Of a stretch of 21,929 bases of DNA, positions 2,134-21,782 are shown piece by piece; positions within the stretch are counted from its first letter, which is position 1, and every line of letters starts with the position of its first letter. Made by a program: the position numbers and the translations under genes. The notes below the pieces were generated by a model, which did no database searches, was not told where the DNA came from, and saw only the letters and a program-made list of their open reading frames with translations. Where the stretch lies: the IMG/VR virus record IMGVR_UViG_3300030061_004132, positions 1 to 21,929 of that record; one strand, 5' to 3'. The DNA comes from a virus.

Positions 2134-2145
2134 ATATCTTATCCT

Positions 2146-4540: not shown

Positions 4541-4552
4541 TTTATTTCTCCT

Positions 4553-5524
4553 TTACCATCTAAAACGAATTTTGCAATCATTAACAATTTTATCAATTTC
4601 TTGATCAAATATTTTTTTAGGCTTCCAGCCTAAATCTCTAAGTTTTTTATCATCTATTGAATACCTGACGTCTTGCCCTTTCCTGATGTAAGAGAAATCC
4701 AGAAGATCTAAGTATTCGCTATATTCTTCCTCGTGGTTGCCGTTGAAAAATGAATTTATTATTTTTCTTGTTGTGTCTATATTTTTTTGTTCAAAGCCGC
4801 CCGCTACATTAAATATTTCGTTTACGACACCAGATTCAATTATTTTAATTACAGCTTGTGCTGTGTCTTCCACATGAAGCCAATTCCTATAAGGTTCGCC
4901 ATGATCGTGTAACCTAATTTTTCTCCCCCTTTGAAGCTGTTTAACAACAAGAGGAATAAGTTTTTCTGGGTATTGGCCCACGCCGTAGTTATTTGTCGGT
5001 CGCAGGATTACATAGTCTAAGCCATAAGTTCTTGCCCAGGCATTTATCAACATGTCAGCAGAAGCTTTAGAGGCCGAGTAGGGGTTGCTAGGTAGCAGAG
5101 AAGCGCTTTCATCATGCGAGCCTTCCTCAATGTCCCCATAAACCTCATCGGTACTAAAATGAAATAAGACCGGTTTCTTGGTAACATTTTTTGGTTTATG
5201 TTTTAAAATATCCAGTAGGTTTTTTACGCCGACGATATTACTCTTAATAAAGTCACTACTGTCTATAATACTGTTACCAACATGTGTCTCCGCAGCAACG
5301 TTAATTATATAATCGCAATCAGGTATGTGTTTTATATCGGCTATATCTGCGTTTAGAAAAGTAAAATTGTAAGTATTGGGCATACGCTCCAGGAACGACA
5401 TATAATTGCAAGCAGCGTATGTCTTACTGTCTATACCATAAACCTTCCACCCTTTTTTTAAACAAGCCTTGGTGACCTCAGAGCCGATAAAACCAAGACA
5501 ACCAGTTACAACTACAAGCTTCAT
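4553..5524 (-). CDS. RmlB-like NDP-sugar 4,6-dehydratase (extended SDR)
   Basis: This 323-residue protein would convert an NDP-hexose or related NDP-sugar to its 4-keto-6-deoxy form using bound NAD. The Rossmann motif TGCLGFIGS is at 7-15. The dehydratase signature STDEVYG (124-130) carries the Asp-Glu pair that distinguishes 4,6-dehydratases from plain epimerases. The Tyr-x3-Lys pair is Y149/K153. RPTNNYG (175-181) and RNWLHVED (213-220) match the substrate-binding part of dTDP-glucose dehydratases (RmlB/RfbB). The length is close to, slightly below, the usual 330-360. The start overlaps the RfbH-like stop by ATGA, so product flow to that 3-dehydrase is likely. The nucleotide (CDP, dTDP, GDP, ADP) cannot be told from sequence by eye. 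It is last in the sugar island. Confidence 0.85.
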   Translation of the reverse strand: MKLVVVTGCLGFIGSEVTKACLKKGWKVYGIDSKTYAACNYMSFLERMPNTYNFTFLNADIADIKHIPDCDYIINVAAETHVGNSIIDSSDFIKSNIVGVKNLLDILKHKPKNVTKKPVLFHFSTDEVYGDIEEGSHDESASLLPSNPYSASKASADMLINAWARTYGLDYVILRPTNNYGVGQYPEKLIPLVVKQLQRGRKIRLHDHGEPYRNWLHVEDTAQAVIKIIESGVVNEIFNVAGGFEQKNIDTTRKIINSFFNGNHEEEYSEYLDLLDFSYIRKGQDVRYSIDDKKLRDLGWKPKKIFDQEIDKIVNDCKIRFRW

Positions 5525-6876
5525 TTTTTAAACTCCTCAAAAAAATTATCTACTGTTGTTTTGATGTAATTGATCTTTTCATCCGTAAGCCCCAAATATG
5601 TACCAAGAAACACTGAGCCCTTTGTGGCTAGGTCTGCATTGGGGAATTTAGATTTTAGATCACTGTAATTAGAGGCAAAAGATTTATAAGCCGGATGATA
5701 GAGAGCATTACCTGTAAAATAGGCTCTTGTTTGGATCTTATTTGCCTCCATATAGTTAACAAATTCTTGCCTACTAAATGGGGCCGTAGGCTTTACAATT
5801 AATAAAAACCCAAACCAACAGGGGTCTGATTTTTCGGTTGCCTCTGGCAGCAAGAAATAATCATTATATTTTTTGAATATGTTATATATCTTTTCAAAAT
5901 TATCTCTGCGAGCTTGTTCCATCCTGGGAAGTTTTTTAAGTTGGGTCAGGCCTAGCGCTGCTTGCATATCTATGGGCTTGAGATTGTATCCAACTTCATC
6001 AAACACATACCTATGGTCATAAGTTATCTCTTGACATCCCGGTAGCCAGTTCTTGAATCTGTCGCCACATGCAGTGCCTCCAGTTACGTCCCCTGGCTTT
6101 TTAACATTACAATAACAAGCGCGACCCCAATCTCTAAAACTAGCTAGGGACATTTTTAGTCTAGCCTTATCAGTTGCCACAAAACCACCTTCACCCATTG
6201 TCATATGGTGGGCAGGATAAAAAGAGCACGTTGACATGACTCCGAAGGAGCCTAGTTTTTTACCATCGTAAAACGAACCCAACGCATCACATGCATCTTC
6301 AAGAAATATCAGATCATATTTGTCTACAATAGCCATTAATCGATCCATATCCGGCGGATTACCCAAAACATGAGCGAACATGATCGCCTTAATTTCTTTA
6401 TTTTTATCGTTAGATAAGACTTCCTCAACCGCGTTTAGATCGATATTTAAGCTAGGCATTTCGACATCCACAAATACCGGTACCAAGTTGTTTTGTATTA
6501 TTGGGTTGATAGTTGTAGGGAAACACACAACGGGTGTAATAACCTTGTCGCCATCTTTTAGGCGGTATTTCTCCGGAGTTTTGTTTTCCGATTTTAAACA
6601 TGAGACCATTAATAAGTTAGCAGAACTGCCAGAGTTAGTTAAAATTCCCTGCCTCTTACCAAGGTATCTCGGAAATAAAAATTCAAATTCAGCCGCATTC
6701 TTACCAAACACAAGCCATTCACTTAGTAAGGACTCTATAGCTCTTTGATATTCTTCGGCATCATAGCTTGGACCAGAGTATTTGACCCAGTCACCAGGAG
6801 ACCATGTATCCCCAAGCCTTTTGTCATCGATATACTCGCCGACCAAGTCTAATATCTGTTTTAATTTACCTTCCAT
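5521..6876 (-). CDS. rfbH: RfbH/E1-like NDP-4-keto-6-deoxysugar 3-dehydrase (PLP plus [2Fe-2S])
   Basis: This 451-residue DegT/StrS-fold protein removes the C3 hydroxyl rather than aminating it, by family inference. At the Schiff-base Lys position the sequence is SFYPAHHMTMGEGG with His223 in place of Lys, exactly as in the E1 enzyme of ascarylose/abequose synthesis. The Fe-S cysteines follow the E1 pattern: C196 (in EDAC), then 57 residues, C254, one residue, C256. The fourth, C270, is 13 residues on rather than the E1 spacing of seven, so there is a six-residue insertion. NSGSSANLL (81-89) binds cofactor phosphate. E1 needs an RfbI/E3-type reductase, and none is visible in this window. It overlaps the nucleotidyltransferase by 11 bases and the 4,6-dehydratase by 4. 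Confidence 0.88.
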   Translation of the reverse strand: MEGKLKQILDLVGEYIDDKRLGDTWSPGDWVKYSGPSYDAEEYQRAIESLLSEWLVFGKNAAEFEFLFPRYLGKRQGILTNSGSSANLLMVSCLKSENKTPEKYRLKDGDKVITPVVCFPTTINPIIQNNLVPVFVDVEMPSLNIDLNAVEEVLSNDKNKEIKAIMFAHVLGNPPDMDRLMAIVDKYDLIFLEDACDALGSFYDGKKLGSFGVMSTCSFYPAHHMTMGEGGFVATDKARLKMSLASFRDWGRACYCNVKKPGDVTGGTACGDRFKNWLPGCQEITYDHRYVFDEVGYNLKPIDMQAALGLTQLKKLPRMEQARRDNFEKIYNIFKKYNDYFLLPEATEKSDPCWFGFLLIVKPTAPFSRQEFVNYMEANKIQTRAYFTGNALYHPAYKSFASNYSDLKSKFPNADLATKGSVFLGTYLGLTDEKINYIKTTVDNFFEEFKK

Positions 6877-7267
6877 CTTGGGTTCCTTTTAATACACTAG
6901 TTGTAGAATATCCGACTAATCTTTTAAAATATAACTTATTATCAACTAAATGGCCACCAATTATTTTTTTATTTTTCCAATCATCCCCAACAACCATCAC
7001 CTGGGGTTTTGCTAGCTCTATCTGGGCTTCCAGCTCATTATCTGTACCAAAGCACACAACCTCATCGATATATTTTATAGACTGCAAAAGAAATATTCTG
7101 TCTTCCAGTTTATTCACAGGCCTGGAGTCCCCTTTACTTTTAGATACTCTATCGTCCTCGTCTACTCCAACCACTAGATAGTCCCCTTGTGATTTCGCAT
7201 ATTTAAATAACTCAATATGACCCCTATGAAGAACGTCGAAGCAACCGTTTACCCATACTTTTTTCAT
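6866..7267 (-). CDS. HldE/RfaE domain II-like nucleotidyltransferase
   Basis: This 133-residue protein would transfer a nucleotide to a sugar-1-phosphate. The start at ATG 7267 gives MKKVWVNGCFDVLHRGH and a 4-base overlap with the kinase; a longer in-frame start (7309) lies inside the kinase gene. GCFDVLHRGH is the cytidylyltransferase-superfamily nucleotide motif. KSKGDSRPVN, VVGDDW and the C-terminal YSTTSVLKG match the HldE adenylyltransferase domain (ISTT-x-I motif). In enterobacteria this domain is fused to the kinase; here the two are separate adjacent genes, as with HldA/HldC. The family normally makes ADP-D-glycero-D-manno-heptose. With RfbH and RmlB-like neighbours a different nucleotide or sugar is possible. 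Confidence 0.82.
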   Translation of the reverse strand: MKKVWVNGCFDVLHRGHIELFKYAKSQGDYLVVGVDEDDRVSKSKGDSRPVNKLEDRIFLLQSIKYIDEVVCFGTDNELEAQIELAKPQVMVVGDDWKNKKIIGGHLVDNKLYFKRLVGYSTTSVLKGTQDGR

Positions 7268-7998
7268 AGAGTACTGACTCCTCTCTTTTGGACTACCACT
7301 GTAGCGCAATTGTTGGCATGTTCAATCGCTTGTTCTATATTACCTTTCTCTAAGAACTTTACAACCAAGCCAGAGATAAACGTATCACCAGCCCCAGAAG
7401 AGTCTTTCATTTCTACACTCTTAACCGGATAAGTCGTACCTTTAAATAAACACCCACCCTCGCCAAGAGTTATAATAAGTTTTTCCATCATTTCGTCGCT
7501 AACTGTATGCCTTGTTTTATTTAATTCATAAATATTTATTTTTATATACAAAGCATTCTTGCACCAATCTCCAAGTGTTTTCTTTGTATCCAAAAAGACG
7601 CATTTGTGTGAATCACATATTTTTTTAATTACCTCTTCGGATATAAAACCCTTGTTGTAGTCTGATATAATTACTGCGTCATAGTCGTTTATGTTTCTTA
7701 GTCCATAAGTGTCTATTTTGGTATACCCGTCGCCCTCAAAATCAACTCTAATAAACATTTGATTTCTCTTCTCGTCAACGTATCTAACTTTTTCAATCAA
7801 CTCCCATTTAGAATTTGTTATGATATCACAATCTACAGACATTGAACTAATATTATTATGCACATTCATTGCCATTCCACCATTTTCAGTTTTGTGCGTA
7901 GGATTAAACACTGGGACTGGTGCCTCCGGACACAGCCTGTGGCACGAACCATAGTGAAAAACGTCTTTGCAACTTTCCCCTATAACCAATACTCTCAT
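7264..7998 (-). CDS. HldE/RfaE domain I-like PfkB-family sugar kinase
   Basis: This 244-residue ribokinase-like protein starts at ATG 7998 behind AAGGGG. It begins MRVLVIGESCKDVFHYG, followed by CPEAPVPVFNP and a GGMAMNVHNN segment, as in heptose-7-phosphate kinases (usual GGAANVA). The catalytic signature is DSSGAGDTFISGL, with the GAGD aspartate as general base. Usual HldE kinase domains are about 310-320 residues. This one is short, with the middle lobe trimmed, so activity is likely but not certain. It couples by ATGA to the nucleotidyltransferase, and the pair would make a sugar-1-phosphate and then an NDP-sugar. No GmhA isomerase or GmhB phosphatase is visible here; the host or another phage region would have to supply them. 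Confidence 0.8.
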   Translation of the reverse strand: MRVLVIGESCKDVFHYGSCHRLCPEAPVPVFNPTHKTENGGMAMNVHNNISSMSVDCDIITNSKWELIEKVRYVDEKRNQMFIRVDFEGDGYTKIDTYGLRNINDYDAVIISDYNKGFISEEVIKKICDSHKCVFLDTKKTLGDWCKNALYIKINIYELNKTRHTVSDEMMEKLIITLGEGGCLFKGTTYPVKSVEMKDSSGAGDTFISGLVVKFLEKGNIEQAIEHANNCATVVVQKRGVSTL

Positions 7999-7999
7999 T

Positions 8000-9160
8000 T
8001 TAACCCCTTATCAAATCGCATATAAAATCTATTTCGTGAGCCTCCAACTCAGGATAGTTTGGAACAAAAAAACCACAAGAATGTATTTTATTACTCATCT
8101 CGTCATCAAATCTTCCATATCTCTCCACCCAAAAAGGGTGTAATCCAAGGTTACCAGCACTAAAAATTCTTGTTTCAACGCCATTTTCTACAAGACGAGA
8201 TACAATTTCTTTTCTGTGTTCAATATTGTCAGCGATAGCGCCAAAAGATATGGAAACGGGGTTGTTGTCTCCCCAGTCCTGGAAACTCACCACGCCAGAA
8301 AGGTTTTCCGCGTATCTTTTATGGTTCCTATTCCTAAGAGCTTTAATCTCCTCTGCGCGGTCAATCTGCCTAAGTCCTAGAAAAGCCTGTAGATCCGTGG
8401 ACCTCAGATTGAAACCAGGCACAAAAAATGTGAATGGCTTATGAAAATCATCAACATTGTTTTTTTCTATGAGATGATCATAAGATTCTTGATCCAAATC
8501 CTTGCCCCAACCGTGACTTCGCAGCATTAAAAGCATATCATATAATTCTTTATCGTTCGTGTTTACCATGCCACCCTCGATAGTTGACAACTGGTGACCG
8601 AAATAGAATGAAAATGATGACATATCTCCGATTGTACCAACCATAGAGCCATCAGAGTACGAAGCGCCAAGAGCAGCACACGCATCCTCTAGTAGACAAA
8701 AGCCATACTTTTCTTTTAATTCAAGCATTCTTTTTTTATAATGAGGAACTCCAAGAACTTGAACAAAAATAACAGCGTCAGGTTTTTCTTTCTTGCAAAC
8801 CTCTTCCAATTGATCTAAATCAATACCGTATGTTTTAGGATCCGCGCCGACCATGATTGGAGTTAACCCTAGTTGGATAGCTGGGGATATTGTGGTCACC
8901 CAGCCAACTGATGGGACGACAATTTTCTTGTTTTCTATCCTCCCCGACATCATAGCAGTGGCCACCATAAGCAAGTTAGCAGAGGAGCCAGAATTGTTAA
9001 AAACAGCGTGTTTTGTGCCAATAAATTCAGCCCATTTGTCCTCTACATCCCAGGTGAGATTTCCCTTTGTGAGCCTGGGGTATGTCTTTAACCAGTCACA
9101 AAGCGCGTTAATATCTTCATCATTAATTGTTTCTTTAGCTAATGGATATTTAATATTCAT
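8000..9160 (-). CDS. ColD-like PLP sugar 3-dehydratase (His in place of active-site Lys)
   Basis: This 386-residue DegT/StrS-fold protein has NSGSSANLL (56-64) for phosphate binding and LEDACAALG (157-165) with Asp159 facing the pyridine nitrogen. In the active-site loop SFSFYFGHQLSTIEGGM, His189 replaces the Schiff-base Lys. This is the mark of GDP-4-keto-6-deoxy-D-mannose 3-dehydratase (ColD, catalytic His188, FGH-x-STIEGG), which uses PLP/PMP and glutamate without an Fe-S centre. The E1 cysteine set is absent, so it is not a second RfbH. It starts behind AAGGAGG, overlaps the RmlC-like gene by ATGA and sits one base before the kinase. An aminotransferase role seems excluded unless an unusual lysine substitutes. 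The substrate nucleotide is unknown. Confidence 0.85.
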   Translation of the reverse strand: MNIKYPLAKETINDEDINALCDWLKTYPRLTKGNLTWDVEDKWAEFIGTKHAVFNNSGSSANLLMVATAMMSGRIENKKIVVPSVGWVTTISPAIQLGLTPIMVGADPKTYGIDLDQLEEVCKKEKPDAVIFVQVLGVPHYKKRMLELKEKYGFCLLEDACAALGASYSDGSMVGTIGDMSSFSFYFGHQLSTIEGGMVNTNDKELYDMLLMLRSHGWGKDLDQESYDHLIEKNNVDDFHKPFTFFVPGFNLRSTDLQAFLGLRQIDRAEEIKALRNRNHKRYAENLSGVVSFQDWGDNNPVSISFGAIADNIEHRKEIVSRLVENGVETRIFSAGNLGLHPFWVERYGRFDDEMSNKIHSCGFFVPNYPELEAHEIDFICDLIRG

Positions 9161-9696
9161 AGTCTAACCTCCTTTAATTTAATTCCATGTTTATCTCTGT
9201 CCGACAATATTGGTGATTTTATAGCCCAATCCACGCCAAGATCGGGGTCATCCCACGCAACTGTCACTTGATTTTCCGGGCCGTTATATTCCTTTGACCA
9301 TTTATAGTAAAATACGCACTTATCTGATAGACATAAATGTGCATTCACACACCCGGCTGGGACTACTACGACCGTAGGCTCGTTGTCCGAAACCAGATAA
9401 GTTTGTACATTCCCATATGTCTCTGAGCCTTTTCTCGTGTCCGCGACTGCAAACTGAAACTGCCCGCTCAAACACGAGACCAATTTTGCCGTGTAGGGAT
9501 CGCCGTGGAACCCTCTAAGAACTCCGAATCTTGAGATAGTAATTTTATCGGCAACAAACTTATGGTCGCAAAATTCATCTTCTCTTTCAGAATATAATGT
9601 CCATATTTCACCCCTAAAGTCTTGAAATGTATCTAAGGTTATCTTGCATAAACCATTTATTTTGTCAGAGTGATCATATCTTTTAATAACATTCAT
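9157..9696 (-). CDS. RmlC-like NDP-sugar 3,5-epimerase (cupin fold)
   Basis: The protein is 179 residues, the typical RmlC size. DFRGE (26-30), then FGVLRGFHGDPY with His64 as the presumed catalytic base, Lys71, and VPAGCVNAHLCLSD with His120, align with RmlC His63, Lys73 and His120. YYKWSKEYNGPE follows, holding the tyrosine(s) used as acid, and WDDPDLGVDW matches the C-terminal 'W-x-DP-x-L-x-I-x-W' signature. RmlC normally epimerises dTDP-4-keto-6-deoxyglucose at C3 and C5. RmlC-like enzymes also act on GDP-6-deoxy-4-keto-heptose in Campylobacter. Given the kinase/nucleotidyltransferase pair, such a heptose substrate is a reasonable alternative here. It starts after GGAGC and overlaps both neighbours by four bases. 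Confidence 0.85.
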   Translation of the reverse strand: MNVIKRYDHSDKINGLCKITLDTFQDFRGEIWTLYSEREDEFCDHKFVADKITISRFGVLRGFHGDPYTAKLVSCLSGQFQFAVADTRKGSETYGNVQTYLVSDNEPTVVVVPAGCVNAHLCLSDKCVFYYKWSKEYNGPENQVTVAWDDPDLGVDWAIKSPILSDRDKHGIKLKEVRL

Positions 9697-10670
9697 CCTA
9701 GCTCCTTACAAAATTCAACAACCTTGCCGCATATATCATCAGAGGATAATCCATTATTATCAATATGGTGGTCCCTATTGCCATTTTCAAAAATATATCT
9801 TTCCGGGAGTCCGATTCTAAGAACATCTTTCTTTAAACCAGCATCTGACAGGGCCTCTAGGACCGAAGAGCCGAATCCGCCAGATAATGTTTGTTCTTCT
9901 ACTGTGACAATAACGTCATATTCTTTCACCGTATTGTGGAACAATTTAGTATTTATAGGCTTTATTCTCCACATATCCACAACAGATACCTCATAACCCC
10001 CAAAACTTAAAGCCTTCTGCGCCTCGCACACCCTGCCTAGCATATAACCACTAGACAGAATACATATTTTAAGTTTATCAGGGTTTCTTGGCTCGGAAAG
10101 TCCGGGTTTGGCGATCCGAATACCAGTTTTTATAGCGTGGCTCCCAGAAAGCCAAGAGGGGTAGGCTGACTCCATAACCTCGGCGTGTTTCCTCTCAAGT
10201 CTTATGTACCTAAGTTTTGGTTCTTCGCACGTTAAATTAACCAGATCTTTGACCATGGTGTTGTTGCTAGGAGAATATATCTCTATACCGCACAAGGATT
10301 TCATATATGCCATGTCCTCGTTGGGACAATGTGCAGGGCCTGCTGGCGAGTATCCGAGGGCGACACCATTTCCCAAGATTGTAATAGGATTATCAGCCAT
10401 AGCACAAGAATATCTAATTTGCTCAAAGCATCTGGCTACCCAGCAGGCCATGAAATATACATAGGCCTTTTTACCATTAGCTGCCAGACCGGCTGCAAAG
10501 TTTATGGCGTTCTGTTCCGAAATGCCAGCGGCGAAAAATTGCTCCGGTAAATCGCTTCTCCAGCGGTCCAAGGATGGAGCACCCATATCAACTGATATTA
10601 GACAAATATCTTTATCCAATTTCGCTCGTTCAAAAAGGTTAGAAATAAATGTATCTCTTTGTGACATCAT
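9693..10670 (-). CDS. Split transketolase, C-terminal subunit (Pyr and C-terminal domains)
   Basis: This 325-residue protein provides the cofactor-activating glutamate: FFAAGISEQNAINFAAGLA (45-63) with Glu52, the transketolase/DXS Pyr-domain signature. GPAHCPNEDMAYM resembles the GPTHHSxEDxA substrate loop, with one His changed to Cys. The C-terminal half contains the transketolase-C fold (ILSSGYMLGRVCEAQKAL, and VTVEEQTLSGGFGS). Two ATGs in a row begin it, both served by GGAGGAG. It overlaps the N-terminal subunit gene by four bases. Separate N and C subunits are common in archaea and in sugar-biosynthesis clusters. The pair could move two-carbon units to make sedoheptulose-7-phosphate, or could build a branched sugar as discussed under findings. 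Confidence 0.85.
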   Translation of the reverse strand: MMSQRDTFISNLFERAKLDKDICLISVDMGAPSLDRWRSDLPEQFFAAGISEQNAINFAAGLAANGKKAYVYFMACWVARCFEQIRYSCAMADNPITILGNGVALGYSPAGPAHCPNEDMAYMKSLCGIEIYSPSNNTMVKDLVNLTCEEPKLRYIRLERKHAEVMESAYPSWLSGSHAIKTGIRIAKPGLSEPRNPDKLKICILSSGYMLGRVCEAQKALSFGGYEVSVVDMWRIKPINTKLFHNTVKEYDVIVTVEEQTLSGGFGSSVLEALSDAGLKKDVLRIGLPERYIFENGNRDHHIDNNGLSSDDICGKVVEFCKELG

Positions 10671-11428
10671 GATAGCTCCTCCAATCCCTTTTTAAGCAGT
10701 TCTTCCTCTTTAGGGATTATAGTGTGATATTGCCACACACCTTCCATATAGCTTACTCCCTTACCTTTAATAGTGTCTGCTATGGTAACGGTGGGCTTGT
10801 CGCTAATTTTAAGGGTGTTGGCCAGATCATCAAAATCATGGCCGTTCACCACCCTGGTCTCAAAGCCAAAACTCTCAAACTTGTCTTTAAGGGGCTCTAG
10901 ACCAAGCAATTCTTCAGTTTCTCCCAAGATTCCCATTTTATTTCTATCGATTATCAAGTGGATATTATTAATATTGTGATGAGCAATAAACATAAGACTT
11001 TCCCAAACAGATCCTTCGTATAACTCCGCGTCACCTAACAAAACATAAACGTTTTTATCGTTACCGTATGCTAAGCCCGCAGCATATCCTATTCCGTTTC
11101 CAAGTGAACCACCAACAAAACTACATCCGGGGATCGATTGGTCAGCGTGCAGCCTAAGAATGCCCTCTGGGGTGCAATATTTTTCTAGTTCTTCCGCTTC
11201 GACAAAACCCAGATCAACCAATATCGGGTATACAGCAGGCGAGCCATGCCCCTTGCTATAGATAACAACATCTTTGTTGGGGTCAAAATCAGTTTTTTTA
11301 TCAAAATAAAGCGAAACTAATATATCCACACACGAAAGGCAGCTAGCTAGATGCCCTGCTCCCGACCTAGTTTTAAACTCAAAAACTCTTCTTCTCACTG
11401 ATTTTGCTATTGTTTCTAGTTCGCTCAT
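10667..11428 (-). CDS. Split transketolase, N-terminal TPP-binding subunit
   Basis: This 253-residue protein supplies the diphosphate-binding (PP) domain for the next gene. SGAGH (22-26), KGH (59-61) and GGSLGNGIGYAAGLA match transketolase substrate and cofactor positions. The thiamine motif is GDAELYEGSVWE...IIDRN (132-163), with Ala where GDG is usual. This Gly-to-Ala change is conservative and is seen in some split transketolases. It starts at ATG 11428 behind GGGGGA and shares one base with the radical SAM stop (TAATG). Adjacent N and C genes imply a heterotetramer. Substrate identity cannot be read from the sequence. Confidence 0.87.
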   Translation of the reverse strand: MSELETIAKSVRRRVFEFKTRSGAGHLASCLSCVDILVSLYFDKKTDFDPNKDVVIYSKGHGSPAVYPILVDLGFVEAEELEKYCTPEGILRLHADQSIPGCSFVGGSLGNGIGYAAGLAYGNDKNVYVLLGDAELYEGSVWESLMFIAHHNINNIHLIIDRNKMGILGETEELLGLEPLKDKFESFGFETRVVNGHDFDDLANTLKISDKPTVTIADTIKGKGVSYMEGVWQYHTIIPKEEELLKKGLEELS

Positions 11429-12972: not shown

Positions 12973-12979
12973 AATAAAA

Positions 12980-12985
12980 CTCCTT
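12980..12985 (-). promoter_or_regulatory. Ribosome binding site AAGGAG for the TTG-started radical SAM gene
   Basis: AAGGAG overlaps the stop of the preceding epimerase gene and lies 7 bases before TTG 12972. No ATG or GTG in that frame is as well placed, so it decides the TTG start. Confidence 0.65.
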
Positions 12986-15504: not shown

Positions 15505-15796
15505 TAAAGAAATCCTCCGTATTTATCGCCTTATCACAAATAAATAAATCATAATGTGGTTTACCAACCTTTACCTCTGTATGTTTAACTCCCCACTCCA
15601 CCAATTGGCTCTTGGTTAGCGGTAGATAATCTACCATTGATACAGAACCTCTAGCAGTCCAGTAAGTAACTGTGTGGCCTTGATCATACAATTTATTCAT
15701 TTTTTCGATGTTTTCTTTTATCGGAATTGCATCAGCGTAATTTCTTTGCCCTTCATATTTGCAAATGGTTTCATCTATGTCAACATAATATATCAT
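15491..15796 (-). CDS. Small HAD-superfamily phosphatase of polysaccharide clusters
   Basis: This 101-residue protein has the HAD nucleophile motif YYVDIDETI with Asp6 and Asp8 (DxDxT), motif II as TARG (47-50), the Lys79-Pro80 pair as motif III, and YDLFICDKAIN (82-92) supplying the Mg-binding acidic residue. This minimal capless form is often annotated as a capsular-biosynthesis or hydrolase protein in surface-sugar clusters. It could dephosphorylate a sugar-phosphate intermediate, for example a nonulosonate-9-phosphate made by the NeuB-like enzyme; that is inference. It shares one base with the cupin gene (TAATG) and overlaps the glycosyltransferase by 14. Confidence 0.8.
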   Translation of the reverse strand: MIYYVDIDETICKYEGQRNYADAIPIKENIEKMNKLYDQGHTVTYWTARGSVSMVDYLPLTKSQLVEWGVKHTEVKVGKPHYDLFICDKAINTEDFFNGEG

Positions 15797-16161
15797 TAGT
15801 CCCCCTTTAGGATTCTGTAGCTGTCGCTGTCAAAGTGCTGGGTAGAGAATTCGAATAGCTCCGTGTCCTCTAGGGCCTCCATTTGATGACGCAGGCCTCT
15901 AAAAACGTGGAAGTTGTCGCCCTTGGTCAAAACTCTCTCTGCGGCCCTGCTTAAATCGTCTCCAGTCGAGTATCTCACTAACATTTTACCCGACTGAATA
16001 TAGAATACTTCATCTTTTAATTTGTGATAGTGCCAAGAACACTTCTTACCTTTTACGAAATAAAGAAGTTTACCACAATACTCATCACAATTAACAATCC
16101 ACTTCTCAAAACCCCAGCCTTTTGGCACAAAATTCATGGGTAGCTGAATATCACTTACCAT
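15796..16161 (-). CDS. Single-domain cupin (sugar isomerase/epimerase-like)
   Basis: The protein is 121 residues. It begins with GWGFEKWIVN, then YCGKLLYFVKGKKCSWHYH and DEVFYIQSG. Metal ligands are probably His44, His46, Glu51 and His92, the standard cupin set, as in mannose-6-phosphate isomerase type II C-terminal domains and stand-alone lipopolysaccharide-cluster cupins. The GWG-x-E-x-W opening is typical of this stand-alone group. It may isomerise or bind a sugar phosphate. It lies between an SDR and a HAD phosphatase, overlapping them by 7 and 1 bases, and has a strong GGGGG ribosome site. Confidence 0.78.
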   Translation of the reverse strand: MVSDIQLPMNFVPKGWGFEKWIVNCDEYCGKLLYFVKGKKCSWHYHKLKDEVFYIQSGKMLVRYSTGDDLSRAAERVLTKGDNFHVFRGLRHQMEALEDTELFEFSTQHFDSDSYRILKGD

Positions 16162-16973
16162 ATTGTTTTACCCCCATCAATTATAAGATTGGTGCCAGTC
16201 ATATAACTACTCGCGTCAGAGCACAAGAAAGCAATCGCCCCCTTATATTCATCAATATCTGCCATCCTTCCCATGGGAATAATATTGGATAATTTTTCAA
16301 CAAAGTCTTCAGGGTGGTTGTTGTATACTCCCGTAGGACTAAGACAATTAACTCTAATCCCCCTTTTTGCAAAATAAACAGCCAGATATTTAGTCATACC
16401 AATAATTGCCCACTTTGCGGCTGAGTATGTGACGGGTTTGACATTTTGCGCCTCCTCGGCAACACCATCTTTTCTATAGATCCTCTGATCCGGGGCGATA
16501 ACACCGAGATCGGAAGAAATATTTAAAATTACGCCGCCGCCTGTAGCCAGCATTTTATTAGCCACCGCTTGAGAACAGAAAAAAGTTCCATTTATGGCGG
16601 CGTCAATACCCTCAAACCAATATTCTTTTGTCATTGTTTCAAATCTGCTAGTAGGTGACAGGCCATCCTCTTTCTTCACCTTGGGGTCTTTTGCCGCATT
16701 ATTAATTAATATGTCAATCTTGTCATAACAATCCAAAACTTTTTGGATTGATTCAGGATCAGTAACATTCATGTGATGCCAAGTAGCAGAACCATCCCCA
16801 TACTTTGAGTTTAGGTTATTCGCTTTTTCCAAAGCTCTATCAACATGGTGATCTGTTATAATAACATTACCGCCAAATTCAATTATTGCCTCGGCATGCT
16901 TTGGGCCTAAAAGCCCGCCTGCGCCGGTTATGAGAGCTGTTTTGCCCTCTAGATTAAAAATATCACGCCCCAT
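16155..16973 (-). CDS. PtmA-like short-chain dehydrogenase
   Basis: This 272-residue classical SDR starts at ATG 16973 (an 11-base overlap with the isomerase gene, AGGAG six to eight bases ahead). The start at 17093 would fall inside the upstream gene. TGAGGLLG (16-23) binds NAD(P). The NNAA motif is at 91-94, catalytic Ser near 153-154, and Y183-x3-K187. The NNAAKDPKV segment and the C-terminal TGTNLIIDGG resemble PtmA-type proteins of Campylobacter flagellin-glycan loci, which occur near CMP-legionaminate genes. It could reduce or oxidise a sugar precursor. The exact substrate is unknown. Confidence 0.82.
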   Translation of the reverse strand: MGRDIFNLEGKTALITGAGGLLGPKHAEAIIEFGGNVIITDHHVDRALEKANNLNSKYGDGSATWHHMNVTDPESIQKVLDCYDKIDILINNAAKDPKVKKEDGLSPTSRFETMTKEYWFEGIDAAINGTFFCSQAVANKMLATGGGVILNISSDLGVIAPDQRIYRKDGVAEEAQNVKPVTYSAAKWAIIGMTKYLAVYFAKRGIRVNCLSPTGVYNNHPEDFVEKLSNIIPMGRMADIDEYKGAIAFLCSDASSYMTGTNLIIDGGKTIW

Positions 16974-17739
16974 TATACATCTCCTGTAAAATGTCTCTAT
17001 GTCTAAGAACAGTGGGGACCTCCTCTCCGGATGGACCCCTAGCTGTTTGTAGAGTATATAAGTTGTTATAACCAAGTTCTTTAAGTATGGCAAATATTAA
17101 CTTAAAATTTGTTTCCCCTTTTCCTGGGGGATATGACATGCTGCCGCCATGTCGGATTCTATCTTTAAGATGAACATTGTTAATCTTATCAAAAATAAGA
17201 TCAATATAATTCTCATGATTTACAAACATGCTTGTCATATTACCGGTATCGTAAGTTGCGTAAAACTTATCCGAGGCTTCAAGAACTTCCATAAGGGGTC
17301 GAGCAGCCATTTCTGCCTCAAAAGAAAATTTTAAACTAGGAAATCTGTTCGATATTGATAATATATTTTTTTTGAAATACATTCTTAATTCGTCATCCAC
17401 CAACGAACTTTGCTCTAATAATGGTATAGTAACAAAGTCGATGTCGTGTCTTACGGCAGCATCGCATATAGGAATAAGATTACTCTCCAAAAAAGGTAGA
17501 GTGAAAATTCTTTTATCAACAAGATTGTCAGCACATATTGAACTAATTGGTAAATCTTGCTTATTAAAATTTAAATTTAATATTGGATTTGTTGAAAAGG
17601 AGTTTTTTGTTACAATCCATTCAATATGATTAAAATTATGTTGCTGTAGTAAATCGAATTCCCTTCTCCATTGCATAGGGGTGTCTTGGAACCCTTCCAG
17701 CGGCGGCGAGAATCTGCCTTGAATAATTCCTAGATCCAT
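16963..17739 (-). CDS. TIM-barrel sugar isomerase/epimerase-like protein (AP endonuclease 2 family)
   Basis: This 258-residue protein starts at ATG 17739 behind AGGAG and abuts the VOC gene stop. It opens DLGIIQGRFSPP, then FNHIEWI, SSICADN, a SFEAEMA stretch, ATYDTGNMTS and NNVHLKDR, consistent with strands of a xylose-isomerase-like TIM barrel. Candidate metal ligands are the Glu in SFEAE, Asp in YDTGN, His in NVHLKD and a Glu near the C-terminus (GEE). The family includes hydroxypyruvate isomerases, sugar epimerases and myo-inositol pathway enzymes. The same family appears in surface-sugar clusters next to SDRs. The substrate is not deducible. Confidence 0.75.
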   Translation of the reverse strand: MDLGIIQGRFSPPLEGFQDTPMQWRREFDLLQQHNFNHIEWIVTKNSFSTNPILNLNFNKQDLPISSICADNLVDKRIFTLPFLESNLIPICDAAVRHDIDFVTIPLLEQSSLVDDELRMYFKKNILSISNRFPSLKFSFEAEMAARPLMEVLEASDKFYATYDTGNMTSMFVNHENYIDLIFDKINNVHLKDRIRHGGSMSYPPGKGETNFKLIFAILKELGYNNLYTLQTARGPSGEEVPTVLRHRDILQEMYNGA

Positions 17740-18174
17740 TTATAACTCCTCAACAATTTCTAAAAACACTCCGCCAAGTGCCTTGGGGGTTCGTGTAAAA
17801 AACACCTTTACCTTCCCTCCGGGAGGTTCTAGGGGCAAATTTACATTAATACAACCACTATTTTGAAGCTGTGTGAACAACTCCTCGGCGTCTGAGACCG
17901 TGAACGCTGCGTGGGAGCAACCAAAATCTGTCAGTTTCCAGAAAGATTCTTCAAAAACTTGAGGCAAATCATAAAACTTTAGCAACTCCAGTAAACCGCC
18001 CTTAGAGTCGGCCAATTTAACTGTCCGTACCTTAGCTCCCGGTACACCGAGCATAGTACTAATATACGAGCCCTCCTCAAGCATATCCTTTGTTACAACC
18101 AAATTAAAATTTTTACTATAAAAATTTATGGATTGGTCGATATCATCTACAACTATACCAGTGTGTCTAATCAT
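17740..18174 (-). CDS. VOC/glyoxalase-superfamily protein
   Basis: The protein is 144 residues. It has the paired beta-alpha-beta-beta-beta module layout. HTGIVVDDIDQSINFYSKNF (4-23) starts the first module and HAAFTVSDAEELFTQLQNSG (about 88-107) the second, with candidate metal ligands His4, Glu in GLLELLKF, His88 and the terminal Glu in VFLEIVE. This is the usual H/E...H/E arrangement of metal-dependent VOC enzymes. Members include glyoxalase I, methylmalonyl-CoA epimerase and dioxygenases. A sugar or ketoacid epimerase role would fit the neighbours, but no assignment is possible. It overlaps the methyltransferase by 8 bases; its own ribosome site is weak, so coupled translation is likely. 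Confidence 0.78.
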   Translation of the reverse strand: MIRHTGIVVDDIDQSINFYSKNFNLVVTKDMLEEGSYISTMLGVPGAKVRTVKLADSKGGLLELLKFYDLPQVFEESFWKLTDFGCSHAAFTVSDAEELFTQLQNSGCINVNLPLEPPGGKVKVFFTRTPKALGGVFLEIVEEL

Positions 18175-18877
18175 TTTGTTTACTCACATATGCCAGCAAC
18201 ATAACTTCGTTCGAAAATCTAATAAATTTATTAATTGAGTTAGGTAACCAAGATCTCTTAAAAGGTCTAAACGGAATAGGAAAAATAGATATAATCTTTG
18301 GTATAATTTTTAGTATAGAATTCCTCCAGACAAAAGGCAATTGATAAAAATATTCTACTTTTACATCTTGAAATCCTGACATTTTCAGGGCCTCTTCTAA
18401 CGAGTGTCTGGTGAAGGGTGTGACGTGCGTGTGGTCTATGTAAAACGGCCCCCAATAGCTATGCTCCCAACTTGGTGTCATTATTACAGCTTTACCTCCG
18501 GGCAATAAAACTCTGTGTGCCTCACTCATAAGATTCAAGGGGTTGTTCATATGTTCTATGACAGATTTACTAAAAACAAAATTTATTGACCCATCCTTAA
18601 AAGGTAGTTTATCAATTTCCAAATCAGCCTTGTGTATTTCATAATCACTATCAGCAGGGCTAATATCTACGCCCATGGCTTCAAATCCTAAATTAGAAAA
18701 AACGTTTAAAAATTCACCATCGCCACAGCCAATATCTAAAATTTCTAAACCTAAACCCTTGGGTCCAAAAAAGTTTTTAGTTAAAAACACACCAAGTTTG
18801 CTTGGATAATCAGAGTCTCTTTTTCCGTAAGTGAACTCAAGGTATTTCTTATCTTTTAGAATATCTTTAGATGCCAT
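18167..18877 (-). CDS. Class I SAM-dependent methyltransferase
   Basis: This is 236 residues from ATG 18877; the longer open frame (18958) extends into the aminotransferase and is not needed. SAM motif I is ILDIGCGDGEF (46-56), motif II acidic residue Asp71 in GVDIS, motif III KADLEIDKLPFKDGSINFV (83-101), and post-motif VIEHMNNP. The middle LLPGGKAVIMTPSWEHSYWGP is typical of the UbiE/COQ5-like type 11 family. The C-terminal region (about 170-215) contains several hydrophobic stretches with Ile-Pro repeats, which may contact the membrane. It probably methylates a sugar or lipid-linked intermediate. It overlaps the aminotransferase by 11 bases and the VOC gene by 8. Confidence 0.83.
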   Translation of the reverse strand: MASKDILKDKKYLEFTYGKRDSDYPSKLGVFLTKNFFGPKGLGLEILDIGCGDGEFLNVFSNLGFEAMGVDISPADSDYEIHKADLEIDKLPFKDGSINFVFSKSVIEHMNNPLNLMSEAHRVLLPGGKAVIMTPSWEHSYWGPFYIDHTHVTPFTRHSLEEALKMSGFQDVKVEYFYQLPFVWRNSILKIIPKIISIFPIPFRPFKRSWLPNSINKFIRFSNEVMLLAYVSKQND

Positions 18878-20126
18878 CGTTCTCTTGCTCCAGACATGTT
18901 TTAACAACAAGTGCAGATTCAACAATCGCATCCTTTGAAATTGTAAGCGGGGGCCCAAATTTGATTGAGTTTCTACCAGTATACACAGGTAGAACGCCGT
19001 TTTGAATACATCTCTTGGCTACATTTGTTGCTGTCTCTGTGTCATGAAAAATAACGCCCGCAACCATCCCACGACAATTTACATCAGCAACAAGTGGTGA
19101 CTCTAGTAGTTCTTCAAAATAACTTTCAAATACAGGTATTTTGTCTTGTAAATCTTTTTGAAATTTGTCGCTTGTTAAAAAATTAATATTTGCCAATGAA
19201 GCGGCAGAACACAATGCATTTCCAGCATGTGTTCCCCCAACAACTGCTTTTTTATCAACATCTATAATCTCTTTGGTTCCCAGTAAGGCAGACATGGGTA
19301 ATGAGGAAGATATCCCCTTGGCCAAACATATAAGGTCTGGCTTTATGTCGCTTGTGTAGGACATGTATCCGTATAGAGTACCCATCCTATAAAAACCAGC
19401 CTGTATTTCATCAAAACAAATCAATATACCGTGTTCTTTGGCAAAATCATAAAGGTCACGAATATATTGGTCCGGGTACATTAAAGCTCCCCAACCTTGG
19501 TATGTTTCAAGAAAAAAAGCAGCTATATCTTTAGGGTCTGGCAGAGCCGTGGGGTCGAAAACACAGTTTTTAGTCGGAAAGTCTATAAATTTGATACTTT
19601 CATCCTTAAAACCACACCACTCAGTTGTGGTTTCATCACCACAAAGTAAATCAGACCCAAGTGTCCTGCCATGATAGCTACCCCTGAATGATATTGTATA
19701 TTTTCTATCATTCTTCGCGGCCCAAAATTTAATTAATTTTATTGCTATGTCTGTTACTTCTGAACCAGAGTTTAACAAAACTGCCTTTTCAAAGTGATCA
19801 GGCGATATTTCCAACAATCTATCAATAAAATCTGCCTTAGCTTGGTTGTTATAAAGGAAGGAAAACCACATATCCTTGTTAAGTTGTTGTTGAATAGCAC
19901 TTTTGATCTCTGGGTTTGCATGTCCAGCGTTAGCCACAAATATCCCCGCTGTCATATCGATGTATTTATTACCGTAAGTGTCCCAGACACTAAAATCTTT
20001 AGCTCTTTCCCAATCTATAAGCTGCTGGCTCAGCGCTACTGACTCCCGGTCGCTTTTCTTTTTTGATAGCGTAGTTGGCGCAAACATCACCTTGCTAAGT
20101 ATGTCTCTATTATTTGTCTTTATCAT
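18867..20126 (-). CDS. Class III PLP aminotransferase (glutamate-1-semialdehyde aminomutase-like)
   Basis: This 419-residue protein starts at ATG 20126, sharing one base with the NeuA-like stop (TGATG) behind GAGGGGG. VLLNSGSEVTDIAIK (about 116-130) binds phosphate, ICFDEIQAGFYRMG holds the pyridine-nitrogen Asp, LICLAKGISSSLPMSALLG carries the Schiff-base Lys, and GGTHAGNALCSAA the phosphate-binding Thr from the other subunit. It therefore keeps the catalytic lysine, unlike the two PLP dehydrases in this window. GSA-type aminotransferases occur in many surface-sugar clusters and may aminate a keto-acid or sugar. It follows the NeuB/NeuA pair directly, suggesting amination of a nonulosonate-like intermediate. 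Confidence 0.85.
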   Translation of the reverse strand: MIKTNNRDILSKVMFAPTTLSKKKSDRESVALSQQLIDWERAKDFSVWDTYGNKYIDMTAGIFVANAGHANPEIKSAIQQQLNKDMWFSFLYNNQAKADFIDRLLEISPDHFEKAVLLNSGSEVTDIAIKLIKFWAAKNDRKYTISFRGSYHGRTLGSDLLCGDETTTEWCGFKDESIKFIDFPTKNCVFDPTALPDPKDIAAFFLETYQGWGALMYPDQYIRDLYDFAKEHGILICFDEIQAGFYRMGTLYGYMSYTSDIKPDLICLAKGISSSLPMSALLGTKEIIDVDKKAVVGGTHAGNALCSAASLANINFLTSDKFQKDLQDKIPVFESYFEELLESPLVADVNCRGMVAGVIFHDTETATNVAKRCIQNGVLPVYTGRNSIKFGPPLTISKDAIVESALVVKTCLEQENDGI

Positions 20127-20911
20127 CAAGTAATCCCCCTCGACATCCAGTCTGACATGTCGCTAGTTTTTAGTAAATACCTCAGAACATCAGGTGGAGA
20201 CCCGCTTCTCATCATTGCTTGTATTGTATCTAATTGGTAACCGGTGTCTATTTCCAATGTATAATCAGTTACTAAAGGAAATACTTTACTACCAAATGCC
20301 TGTCCGTGAGCGGACAAAGTTTCTGGTTTTACTAAATCGATGTAGCCATTCGGCTGATATGCTTTTGGGAAGACTTGTCGAGGAAGATTTGTGTAATTTT
20401 TATTCCCGTTAAAATCCTCAAAAAATCCCTTAAAGTATTTTTGTCCTAATTTTAAACACTTGTACGGGGACTCTGGAAGCTCGTGTGCAGACCTAGCTGC
20501 CGTAGACTCGGCGTACTCAGCGCTGTTTTGATATAAATCTATGTAATCATCTATTTTTTTTGGATCTCTAATCGGTGTGGTGGGCCTAATAAAGGCTATA
20601 CACTCTTCCTCCCCTCCCCCTTCATAGTAGCCCTGCTTTGTCAAAAAATGATTAATAACATCAAAATCGGTGGATGTGTCGGTTGCATATCTTGCGGGTC
20701 TCATAAATGGAACTTCAGCACCATATTTTATTGCTTCCCTTGCTATTTCATCACTATCCGTAGATACAACTATCCTATCTATTCTTTTTGACATTTTACA
20801 GGCAGCTATGGAATACGCTATTAGCGGAAACCCTACCACCTTTGCGATATTCTTTCTAGGGACGCCCTTGCTGCCGCCCCGTGCAGGAATAAGGGCTGTT
20901 ATTCCGGCCAC
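20126..20911 (-). CDS. neuA: CMP-nonulosonate synthetase-like cytidylyltransferase (GTG start)
   Basis: This 261-residue protein starts at GTG 20911, with TTAGGA (20919-20924) 7 bases ahead. IPARGGSKGVPRKNI (8-22) is the CTP-binding signature of CMP-sialate synthetases, and VSTDSDEIAREA the second conserved segment. FIRPTTPIRDPKKID corresponds to the 'LQPTSPLR' loop with Phe-Ile-Arg in place of Leu-Gln, and DTGYQLD lies near the C-terminus. It would charge the NeuB-type product with CMP. The length is close to the standalone enzyme without the hydrolase domain. It overlaps the NeuB-like gene by 13 bases. The actual sugar could be sialic, legionaminic, pseudaminic, or another 2-keto acid. Confidence 0.85.
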   Translation of the reverse strand: MAGITALIPARGGSKGVPRKNIAKVVGFPLIAYSIAACKMSKRIDRIVVSTDSDEIAREAIKYGAEVPFMRPARYATDTSTDFDVINHFLTKQGYYEGGGEEECIAFIRPTTPIRDPKKIDDYIDLYQNSAEYAESTAARSAHELPESPYKCLKLGQKYFKGFFEDFNGNKNYTNLPRQVFPKAYQPNGYIDLVKPETLSAHGQAFGSKVFPLVTDYTLEIDTGYQLDTIQAMMRSGSPPDVLRYLLKTSDMSDWMSRGIT

Positions 20912-21738
20912 TGATGATTCCTAAGTTTATCTCTGACCGGAACTTCCGACTCTTGCACAGTCTTTGTGGGGCTGCCAAGGGACAGTTCTACTGTCCTAAT
21001 ATCTTTAACCAGTCTCGTTAGATCATCTAATTCAATAGACGCAGGCTGGTCCGAGCCATACATGGTTTTATCAAGTGTAATGTGCCTCTCGATACAGGTA
21101 GCGCCCATGGCGGCTGCCGAGACGGATACAATACGGCCAGTCTCATGGCCACTATAACCAGCGGCACACTTAAATACATCCCTAAGCGTCCACATAGCCC
21201 TTAAGTTAGCGGCCTCATTCTTCATAGGATAAGTGCTATTACAATGCATTAATGTAAATGGACAATCGTGATGATTAAATGTGTTTACAACACGCTCAAT
21301 TTCTTCCATAGTGCTCATGCCTGTGGAAATAAATGTGTGCCTGCCTTCCCTAGCAATTTCCTCAACCAGTTCCTTATATGTTAGAAGCGCCGAAGCGATC
21401 TTGTTGTGTTTCAGATTGTACTGCTTTAAAAAGTCTTGACTTTTTAAATCCCAAGCAGAGGCAAACCAATCGATTCCCACCGCTTTACAATACCGATCAA
21501 TTTCATCATATTCTTGCTTTCCAAATTCGAGCCCAAGTTTTTGCTCTCTATTGGTTGTCCCCCAGGGGCTTTCTCTCGGTCTGTCCAAATCAGCTTTCGT
21601 ATAGACTTTTTCTACACACCTCTTTTGAAATTTAACAGCGTCACAGCCTGCTCTGACCGCACCATCAATCATCTTCTTAGCGATGTCTAAATCGCCATTA
21701 TGGTTAATACCAATTTCTGCTATAATATAAACACTCAT
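20899..21738 (-). CDS. neuB: NeuB-type nonulosonate synthase catalytic domain (no SAF domain)
   Basis: This 279-residue protein condenses phosphoenolpyruvate with an aldehyde sugar, by family inference. AEIGINHNGD (7-16) is the NeuB signature, followed by AVKFQKR, STGMSTMEEI, LMHCNSTYPM, GYSGHETG and IERHITLDKTMYGSDQPASIE, the metal- and PEP-binding parts of the TIM barrel. Bacterial NeuB is usually 335-350 residues and ends in an antifreeze-like SAF domain that closes the partner's active site. Here the protein stops just after the barrel (…VPVRDKLRNHQWPE). No frameshift-rescued SAF domain appears in the next gene. It starts behind AGGAGT with its own sigma70-like promoter. It is the first gene of the island. 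Confidence 0.85.
   Translation of the reverse strand: MSVYIIAEIGINHNGDLDIAKKMIDGAVRAGCDAVKFQKRCVEKVYTKADLDRPRESPWGTTNREQKLGLEFGKQEYDEIDRYCKAVGIDWFASAWDLKSQDFLKQYNLKHNKIASALLTYKELVEEIAREGRHTFISTGMSTMEEIERVVNTFNHHDCPFTLMHCNSTYPMKNEAANLRAMWTLRDVFKCAAGYSGHETGRIVSVSAAAMGATCIERHITLDKTMYGSDQPASIELDDLTRLVKDIRTVELSLGSPTKTVQESEVPVRDKLRNHQWPE
20919..20924 (-). promoter_or_regulatory. Ribosome binding site TTAGGA for the GTG-started NeuA-like gene
   Basis: TTAGGA sits inside the end of the NeuB-like gene, 7 bases before GTG 20911, and supports the GTG start. Confidence 0.55.
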
Positions 21739-21753
21739 AATAACTCCTAATGT

Positions 21754-21782
21754 ATACTAACTCTTAACAACAATAATGTCAA
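21754..21782 (-). promoter_or_regulatory. Sigma70-type promoter driving the glycan island
   Basis: On the minus strand, TTGACA (21777-21782) is a perfect -35 box. A 17-base spacer separates it from TAGTAT (21754-21759), a fair -10 (4 of 6). The -35 begins within the last codons of the upstream partial gene, whose TGA is part of it. About 15 bases lie between the -10 and the neuB-like start, so the 5' leader would be very short, with AGGAGT as ribosome site inside it. This fits early or middle transcription by host RNA polymerase. It is the only clear promoter I see in the window. Confidence 0.6.

Follow-up and report, generated by a model that had tools for sequence, protein, structure and literature searches.

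A conserved hotspot in a clade of T4-like phages holds interchangeable glycan genes that may serve to decorate virion proteins

Introduction

The window studied here comprises bases 1-21929 of a 93,723-base IMG/VR virus record (IMGVR_UViG_3300030061_004132, labelled G000) and carries an island of sugar genes next to the gene of a gp55-like late sigma factor. The phage is T4-like, with a Gp23 capsid and a gp55-type late sigma factor, and the island sits in a conserved hotspot whose borders are fixed and whose contents are interchangeable. We lean, with slightly more confidence than doubt, to the reading that the contents form a cassette which phages exchange and which assembles glycans in the cytosol, with virion proteins as the most likely target. 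The initial annotation of the window overlooked both the conserved hotspot and a Maf/sialyltransferase-like gene located just beyond the window edge.

A Conserved Hotspot with Variable Content

For the sigma gene (3046-3747, minus strand) viral contigs contain at least 596 relatives, and the analysis used the best 80; counts for related loci refer to 82 loci. With the sugar genes of the window as queries, at least one match lies upstream of the sigma gene in 65 of the 66 loci with at least 5 kb of upstream DNA (238 places in 622 kb), and no match was found in 635 kb on the other, downstream side; this count leaves out L008, L088, L089 and the 13 loci with less than 5 kb upstream. The border glycosyltransferase (GT) is present in 18 of the 20 long records queried, at 53-65% identity in relatives, and gave no match in G011 and G019 within the DNA present. 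Furthermore, the order nuclease, GT, GT, variable DNA, gene of 81 amino acids (aa), sigma factor is retained in 17/17 two-bordered records, including G001, a second IMG/VR record (183 kb) of the window phage. The constant part consists of two GT4-type glycosyltransferases at one border, which are kept even in near-empty sites.

The DNA between these borders ranges from 18 bp in G017 and 71 bp in G012 to 24,316 bp in G013. Its open reading frames (ORFs) are almost uniformly codirectional (294/297), and its 290 proteins of at least 70 aa fall into 197 clusters at 40% identity, 152 of which are confined to one phage each; the two most similar islands, those of G006 and G013, have 82% of clusters in common. 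A Pfam tally took 150 of 167 cluster representatives (the 197 clusters minus 26 common with the window phage and minus 4 skipped). Epimerases/dehydratases, GT2 and GT1/GT4 glycosyltransferases, methyltransferases, UDP-sugar dehydrogenases and cytidylyltransferases lead, followed by DegT enzymes and NeuB. Seven locus pairs with near-identical cores look like the same phages; below this level upstream sharing falls, and few pairs are close enough for a swap to be dated.

Assembly Integrity and True Extent of the Island

G000 and G001 are 98.5-99.99% identical over all of G000, and at least 99.8% identical across the island and both borders. G000 spans the meeting point of the two ends of G001, with an overlap of about 98 bp, and the breakpoints of the two records differ. 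Consequently G001, linear according to its IMG/VR class, looks complete and circular, at about 182.9 kb. The Gp23-type major capsid protein (PF07068 above cut-off) was found in 13 of 15 records, including G001 (E 3e-62), which identifies the phage as T4-like; it was not found in G000, about half of the genome, or in G013 (112.7 kb, perhaps partial). The proposal of the initial annotation that a glycan island is built into a T4-like phage genome is thus borne out by Gp23 and by two overlapping assemblies that agree across both borders. A chimeric assembly of phage and bacterial DNA, which had been considered for the junction at 4540-4553, was rejected and is given practically no weight. The two records, with their different breakpoints, agree at this junction, and the same borders recur in many relatives. 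No support for a chimera was found; a scaffold gap of 10 N (21930-21939) does lie inside the island, but G001 matches all of G000 and is gapless at that place.

The 22 minus-strand ORFs at 4553-21738 are as first described, and 20 of them have a Pfam match at E<=0.001. Nearly all of these matches are to enzymes that make or transfer sugars or to folds common in clusters of this kind, the Mpo1-like protein being the exception; with its unbroken series of nucleotide-sugar and glycosyltransferase genes in a phage genome, the region belongs with the phage lipopolysaccharide (LPS) or glycan islands. The 12-base gap (4541-4552) between the island and the phage gene is likewise correct, no terminator-like site appears there in a scan of 2000-21929, and the gp55-like label of the sigma gene finds support in its match to PHROG 234 ('late sigma transcription factor', E 2.5e-4). 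The proposed end of a 17 kb island at 21738, on the other hand, does not stand. The window edge coincides with the start of the scaffold gap, which lies inside the island and interrupts a 23rd gene whose C-terminus is encoded at 21779-21929 (minus strand); in G001, where the gap is closed, this PF01973 gene is an intact 309-aa ORF. Five further island genes, three glycosyltransferases and two unassigned, follow up to G000 27305, and the order past the gap is the PF01973 protein, a small unassigned protein, a GT2 glycosyltransferase, an unassigned 277-aa protein and the two GT4-type border glycosyltransferases. The first of these two falls just under the Pfam cut-off, yet a gene annotated as a glycosyltransferase in the cultured Flavobacterium phage immuto (NC_055915) matches it. 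Outside this end lies a PD-(D/E)XK nuclease, with PhoH a few genes further. Because the operon continues to 27305 with phage genes on both sides, the whole island amounts to 28 genes and 22.75 kb.

The Nonulosonate Module

The PF01973 (Maf-like) gene lies directly upstream of NeuB (20899-21738) and NeuA (20126-20911). A profile search located it in 20 viral loci, that of the window phage included, with near-duplicates among them (L125/126/127/140 and L136/137). NeuB stands within three genes downstream of the Maf-like gene in 20/20 loci and within two in 19/20, and relatives of RfbH and of the 4,6-dehydratase lie directly upstream of it in 13/20. The block NeuB, NeuA, class III aminotransferase, methyltransferase, glyoxalase, TIM barrel, short-chain dehydrogenase/reductase (SDR) and cupin recurs among these loci, with losses and some rearrangement. 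In the 16/16 other records that keep both borders, the Maf-like gene is found between the hotspot borders on the same strand, and the remaining three of the 19 other records show one border only, in the right place. As far as visible, every Maf-like copy from this viral scan sits in this slot.

The 279-aa NeuB protein belongs to the synthase family (PF03102, E 6e-71) and NeuA to the CMP-sugar synthetases (PF02348, E 8e-19). The description of the island as unusual holds for NeuB, present in 3 of 50,697 named phage records (one named Moritella viscosa), and for the B12 radical SAM enzyme, which finds in those records only a 22% match, in Streptomyces phage SF3. It does not hold for the RfbH-like gene, with relatives in 81 named phage records, 54 of them Synechococcus phages. 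As a separate observation, the split transketolase pair (9693-11428) adjoins RfbH-type dehydrases, has relatives upstream of the NeuB module in three other loci (L129, L131, L132), and could build a branched-chain sugar. Clustered homologues of NeuB (41%), SDR (51%), RfbH-like (26%) and HAD (39%) proteins also occur in L122 (MH319754.1, Marine virus AG-345-L05, of single-cell source and assigned to Kyanoviridae in its record), whose source cell could reveal a host.

The Maf/Sialyltransferase-like Protein

The PF01973 match reaches 50 bits against a cut-off of 34.6 and covers only profile positions 119-169 of 171. Compared with PDB sequences, the single G000 protein gave nothing up to E 1; with a profile, the nine best matches among 177,635 PDB sequences are all sialyltransferases, at weak significance (best E 0.0068; range 0.007-0.07). 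A structure model built from 16 homologues has a predicted local distance difference test score (pLDDT) of 87.1 and a predicted template modelling score of 0.90; a first model from 3 sequences (pLDDT 52, no fold match at E<=0.001) was dropped. The best PDB matches of the model in Foldseek are to the sialyltransferase CstII (E 2.4e-5 and 7.2e-5, TM-scores 0.36-0.48). A second structural aligner, applied to the same predicted model, ranks the Maf flagellin glycosyltransferase 5MU5 first (Z 13.7, root-mean-square deviation 3.9 Å over 204 residues), followed by Cst-I/Cst-II (Z 11.3). According to the available sections of PMC11339370, Maf enzymes O-glycosylate flagellin with nonulosonic acids and consist of three domains, the central PF01973 domain, which resembles Cst-II, being flanked on its N- and C-terminal sides.

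From these fold and profile matches, together with NeuB always alongside, we conclude that the PF01973 protein is a predicted CMP-nonulosonate transferase of the Maf/sialyltransferase group. At the level of the predicted model, the fold does not decide between a protein and a glycolipid acceptor. PF01973 is now named MptE-like, after a pterin enzyme kind, and the constant NeuB neighbour speaks for a sugar role over an MptE/HPPK pterin diphosphokinase role. The protein is referred to below as Maf/GT42-like, GT42 being the family number of Cst-type sialyltransferases. A related arrangement was noted in two proteins of about 685 aa beside NeuB (L100:3778-5835 and L117:9446-11509), in which a GT4-type domain is joined to a sub-threshold PF01973 match (28.6 and 22.3 bits; cut-off 34.6).

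Bacterial Copies and Origin

It had been suggested that the island would lose its phage character if identical copies were confined to bacterial chromosomes. Neither a near-identical island nor a bacterial donor was found in one bacterial-genome scan with the Maf-like gene and in 249 genomes of one phylum. The scan returned 11 matches to the Maf-like family, and the best, the only one syntenic with the module, is a contig of a 'Maricaulis' metagenome-assembled genome (MAG) that measures 12.7 kb and has a GC content of 34.6%. Four other contigs sampled from this bin comprise one of 63% GC and three of 33-36% GC, and the long ORFs of the latter three resemble, by eye only, phage structural and replication proteins. 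Among the 249 genomes of that phylum three matched, namely the MAG itself and two at E 5e-4. Maricaulis DNA is presumably GC-rich, and the matching contig is probably mis-binned, perhaps viral. The sigma gene gave no match in this MAG, a result that carries no weight. Two MAG contigs (L143 and L158) carry variants of the RfbH, dehydratase and Maf-like stretch that are 85% identical over 2.2 kb; since the GC content of this MAG is uneven, the occurrence of both variants in it suggests that viral or foreign contigs were mis-binned.

Function and Acceptor of the Glycan

In the mechanism proposed here, the hotspot of this T4-like phage clade would hold an exchangeable cassette for cytosolic glycan assembly, whose variable genes would make unusual activated sugars and add them. 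The product of NeuB and NeuA, acting with the block from aminotransferase to cupin, would be a nonulosonic-acid-like sugar activated with CMP, and at least one deoxy or branched sugar would come from the RfbH, HldE-like and transketolase genes. Cytosolic transfer of these sugars would fall to the glycosyltransferases together with the Maf/GT42-like enzyme, the most likely targets being phage structural proteins that are not yet assembled, and the outcome would be a virion glycan that differs between phages.

The route to the acceptor is narrowed by two negative results. None of the 290 island proteins has three or more hydrophobic segments in a simple hydropathy count, which assigns 6 segments to Wzy and 9 to Wzx of the E. 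coli O16 control, and the initiating phosphosugar transferase PF02397 was found in 0/18 records (control positive in 9/14 genomes). Without a polytopic protein and PF02397 the island is not a Wzx/Wzy locus, and a lipid-linked exported polymer is unlikely, which leaves cytosolic transfer to protein, to the lipooligosaccharide core or to DNA. For a virion protein as acceptor our confidence and our doubt are about equal, and host lipooligosaccharide appears the less likely choice. Two reasons favour virion proteins: the closest fold is that of an enzyme which glycosylates proteins, and making rare sugars de novo would fit a permanent particle coat better than a transient change of the host. Hence, of the three functions offered in the initial annotation (glycosylation of virions, remodelling of the host surface against superinfection, or a precursor for the host), virion glycosylation is favoured. 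The computation shows the hotspot, its mosaic content, low dN/dS values in the few usable pairs (see below), the predicted fold of the transferase and no sign of export machinery; the sugars, the acceptor and the selective pressure, which may lie in receptor choice, shielding or superinfection, are what we infer.

Several points weigh against this reading. Cst-type sialyltransferases, which act on lipooligosaccharide, match the model almost as well as Maf. The pterin enzyme HPPK of Methanocaldococcus jannaschii (8sd5) reaches Z 11.3, tied with Cst-I/Cst-II and 2.4 below Maf, and the Foldseek TM-scores are low (0.36-0.39 on the query). The three-domain Maf architecture is absent, the 309-aa protein aligning to residues 260-510 of 5MU5 without flanking domains. 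NeuB fails both equivalog models of N-acetylneuraminate/pseudaminate synthase (260 bits against a cut-off of 400 for TIGR03569, and 188 against 340), so that the sugar would be nonulosonate-like and standard sialic acid is unlikely. The count of membrane segments is crude, and the ratio of nonsynonymous to synonymous substitution rates (dN/dS) is usable in only 31/573 island pairs. G012 and G017 retain only the two border glycosyltransferases, which indicates that the large cassette is dispensable. Finally, the late-promoter motif TATAAATA was found 12 times against 6.7 expected.

The main rival is host-surface remodelling, in which the enzymes would extend or cap the host lipooligosaccharide core during infection via host export and thereby block superinfection or re-adsorption of progeny. 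We regard this as unlikely overall, even though Cst-I/Cst-II match the transferase at Z 11.3, the PDB names the relative 9c08 a lipooligosaccharide sialyltransferase, and the HldE-like and RfbH genes bear LPS-type names. A host-surface role was also the one preferred for pelagimyophage glycosyltransferases by the authors of PMC7029224, in the excerpt at hand. The closest fold, however, is the protein glycosyltransferase Maf (Z 13.7), and making several new sugars from scratch would be costly if the LPS needs only blocking. The lack of a polytopic protein and of PF02397 points the same way, although core capping needs neither. A role in DNA hypermodification, with the glycosyltransferases decorating modified bases of the phage genome, is improbable. 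The border GT does match PF20706 ('GT4 in conflict systems', E 7e-9, above cut-off), and virus glycosyltransferases that hypermodify DNA have reportedly been described by Pyle in 2024. Against this, PF00303 (thymidylate synthase), to which the T4 dCMP hydroxymethylase presumably belongs, was found in 0/12 records (control positive in 9/14 genomes), which disfavours DNA glucosylation of the T4 type; we also know of no DNA role for NeuB, NeuA or Maf-like genes. A search for PF12851 (Tet/JBP) gave 0/18 records, but the control was likewise without a match, so that this result says nothing either way.

Neutral filler ('stuffer DNA') for headful packaging, finally, is very improbable. Very variable length and near-empty sites would suit it, and Sullivan et al. 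considered it for the LPS clusters of cyanophages (PMC3037559, available sections). It is opposed by a low dN/dS (median 0.11 in the 31 usable island pairs, none >0.5, and 0.13 in 67 core pairs; 3000/5040 pairs computed, 542/573 island pairs saturated, pairs not independent), by the fixed site on one strand and by the conserved gene order of the module. Returning to virion glycosylation, a bolder form of it is held only tentatively: the slot may be a viral serotype locus at which a T4-like clade swaps self-contained glycan cassettes, a Maf-type transferase having been rewired from flagellin to virion proteins so as to coat particles with phage-specific nonulosonic-acid glycans. If this is true, phages would have self-made 'serotypes', analogous to O-antigens and assembled wholly in the cytosol.

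Gene Content of the Window

All genes of the window described here are on the minus strand. On the sigma side, matches are found among the 82 related loci for a phage gene at 1144-2133 (79 loci), a conserved 104-aa phage gene adjoining the sigma factor, which is the anchor of the hotspot (2753-3067, 81 loci), a conserved small border gene with one hydrophobic segment (3719-4036, 77 loci), a further small border gene (4036-4326, 51 loci) and the 81-aa gene (4295-4540, 75 loci), which forms the inner border in all two-bordered records.

The island opens with a dTDP-glucose 4,6-dehydratase-like SDR (4553-5524; TIGR01181 E 4e-83, under cut-off). Of the two pyridoxal phosphate (PLP) dehydrases initially described, the one at 5521-6876 is confirmed as an RfbH-type 3-dehydrase (NF011936, 474 bits against a cut-off of 423), whereas that at 8000-9160 is a second DegT/RfbH-like PLP enzyme with a Pfam match that stays under the RfbH cut-off (203 bits). 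Between them lie an HldE domain II-like nucleotidyltransferase (6866-7309; TIGR02199 E 3e-33) and an HldE domain I-like PfkB sugar kinase (7264-7998; TIGR02198 E 1e-36), both under cut-off. They are followed by an RmlC-like 3,5-epimerase (9157-9696; PF00908 E 9e-37, TIGR01221 under cut-off) and, from Pfam matches, the pyrimidine-binding and C domains of transketolase (9693-10670), its N (thiamine diphosphate) subunit (10667-11428), the B12-binding radical SAM enzyme (11428-13002) and an NAD-dependent epimerase/dehydratase (12984-13913). Amid these sugar genes sits the Mpo1-like gene (13910-14320; PF06127 E 1e-27, 2-hydroxy fatty acid dioxygenase family), whose product has one hydrophobic segment and whose relatives were matched in 12/82 related loci.

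Next come a conserved 135-aa protein (14190-14597) that has no Pfam match and has 80-85% identical homologues in five other related loci, a GT10 (fucosyltransferase-like) glycosyltransferase (14590-15504; PF00852 E 1e-11), and a short HAD-type phosphatase (15491-15796), matched only by PHROG 1238 (E 7e-26) and, under cut-off, by TIGR01689. Pfam matches then identify the cupin (15796-16161), the SDR oxidoreductase (16155-17093), the xylose-isomerase-like TIM barrel (16963-17739), the glyoxalase-fold protein (17740-18174), the S-adenosylmethionine methyltransferase (18167-18958) and the class III aminotransferase (18867-20129), which precede the NeuA-like and NeuB-like genes. Judging from overlaps and internal ATGs, the three ORFs with TTG starts at 7309, 17093 and 18958 are probably over-extended, and their likely ATG starts are near 7267, 16973 and 18877, respectively.

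Elsewhere in the Phage Genome

Eleven proteins of 105-634 aa, encoded at G000 44579-55361 (plus strand) and 81741-84408 (minus strand; L004, L006), begin with nearly the same N-terminal peptide, M-K/N-x-L-x-E-N-W-R/K-x-Y/F-L/I-x-E in most of them; a few looser cases occur, one preceding a HAD-like domain by eye (50774). The peptide was matched 0 times in a reversed-sequence control and 0 times in 1.46 Mb of the relatives' loci, which represent another region of the genome. It resembles a capsid-targeting peptide of the T4 type, which ends in an [L/I]-x-E protease site, and by this analogy suggests that the tagged proteins may be packed in the head and injected. A further region, G000 60-80 kb (L005), has 48.5% GC against 39-43% elsewhere, and most ORFs in its initial 10 kb are small; a query of 10 kb taken from this region has an identical match in G001 and gave no match in 8 other related records. 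In addition, the ORF at 86927-88573 (L006) is GroEL-like by eye, and phage immuto has annotated GroES and GroEL.

Significance and Comparison with Known Systems

Glycan islands in T4-like marine phages are already known from the available sections of PMC3037559 and PMC7029224; a marine origin of the present phage is an assumption of the initial annotation. Titles and abstract openings of the open-access literature gave no account of this hotspot or of a NeuB-Maf module in phages; as far as these searches show, the fixed slot with a constant GT pair, its near-empty and filled states and the NeuB-NeuA-Maf-like module are new. The hotspot suggests that phage genomes of this clade regularly include such islands and that these are under selection. 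In the parts of the sources at hand, it was left open whether cyanophage glycan genes are working or filler (PMC3037559), and a global ocean survey, regarding LPS islands as a sign of possible host DNA, excluded the contigs that carry them from its conservative set (PMC11360552). The hotspot provides a testable mechanism with a named transferase, and with immuto a cultured relative is available for a direct test. Should virions prove to carry these glycans, current views of receptor recognition and shielding in phage populations would have to be revised.

The LPS clusters of the cyanophages P-SSM2, S-SM2 and S-SSM7 are likewise large glycan clusters in T4-like phages, one of them near phoH and with their function questioned (PMC3037559, available sections). 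As described there, they occur in the larger genomes near hli03 and/or phoH and tRNAs, whereas in the present clade, a different one, the slot is fixed and the pair of GTs in it constant. Matches to the border GT occur in 10 of the 50,697 phage records; P-SSM2 is not among them, three Synechococcus records match weakly, and Microcystis phage Mel-JY01 matches at 33%. The host recognition cluster of pelagimyophages shares hypervariability, glycosyltransferases and a fixed site in T4-like phages (PMC7029224). In the excerpt at hand, that cluster lies between vrlC and gp14, holds tail fibres, has GT8 as its commonest GT family and is described without the word 'sialic' (PMC7029224). In contrast, the slot described here lies between the PD-(D/E)XK nuclease and the sigma gene, and sugar families lead its content.

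Phage immuto shows the same order at three border genes with 28-31% identity: PD-(D/E)XK nuclease, a small gene, GT and GT, followed by eleven genes, eight of which are annotated with sugar-type functions; its sigma relative is 30% identical. It differs in that other genes, most of them hypothetical, separate the glycan block from the sigma gene by about 18 kb, and in having no NeuB match. Bacterial O-antigen and capsule loci, with constant flanks and exchangeable sugar genes, bear a likeness to the hotspot; unlike these loci and that of E. coli O16, the island has no Wzx/Wzy-like polytopic protein and no PF02397. The Maf flagellin glycosyltransferases with CMP-nonulosonate clusters also combine a PF01973 transferase with neighbouring NeuB and CMP-sugar synthetase genes (PMC11339370, available sections). 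Their enzyme transfers nonulosonates to protein, whereas the phage counterpart is a single-domain protein of 309 aa, for which such a role is proposed.

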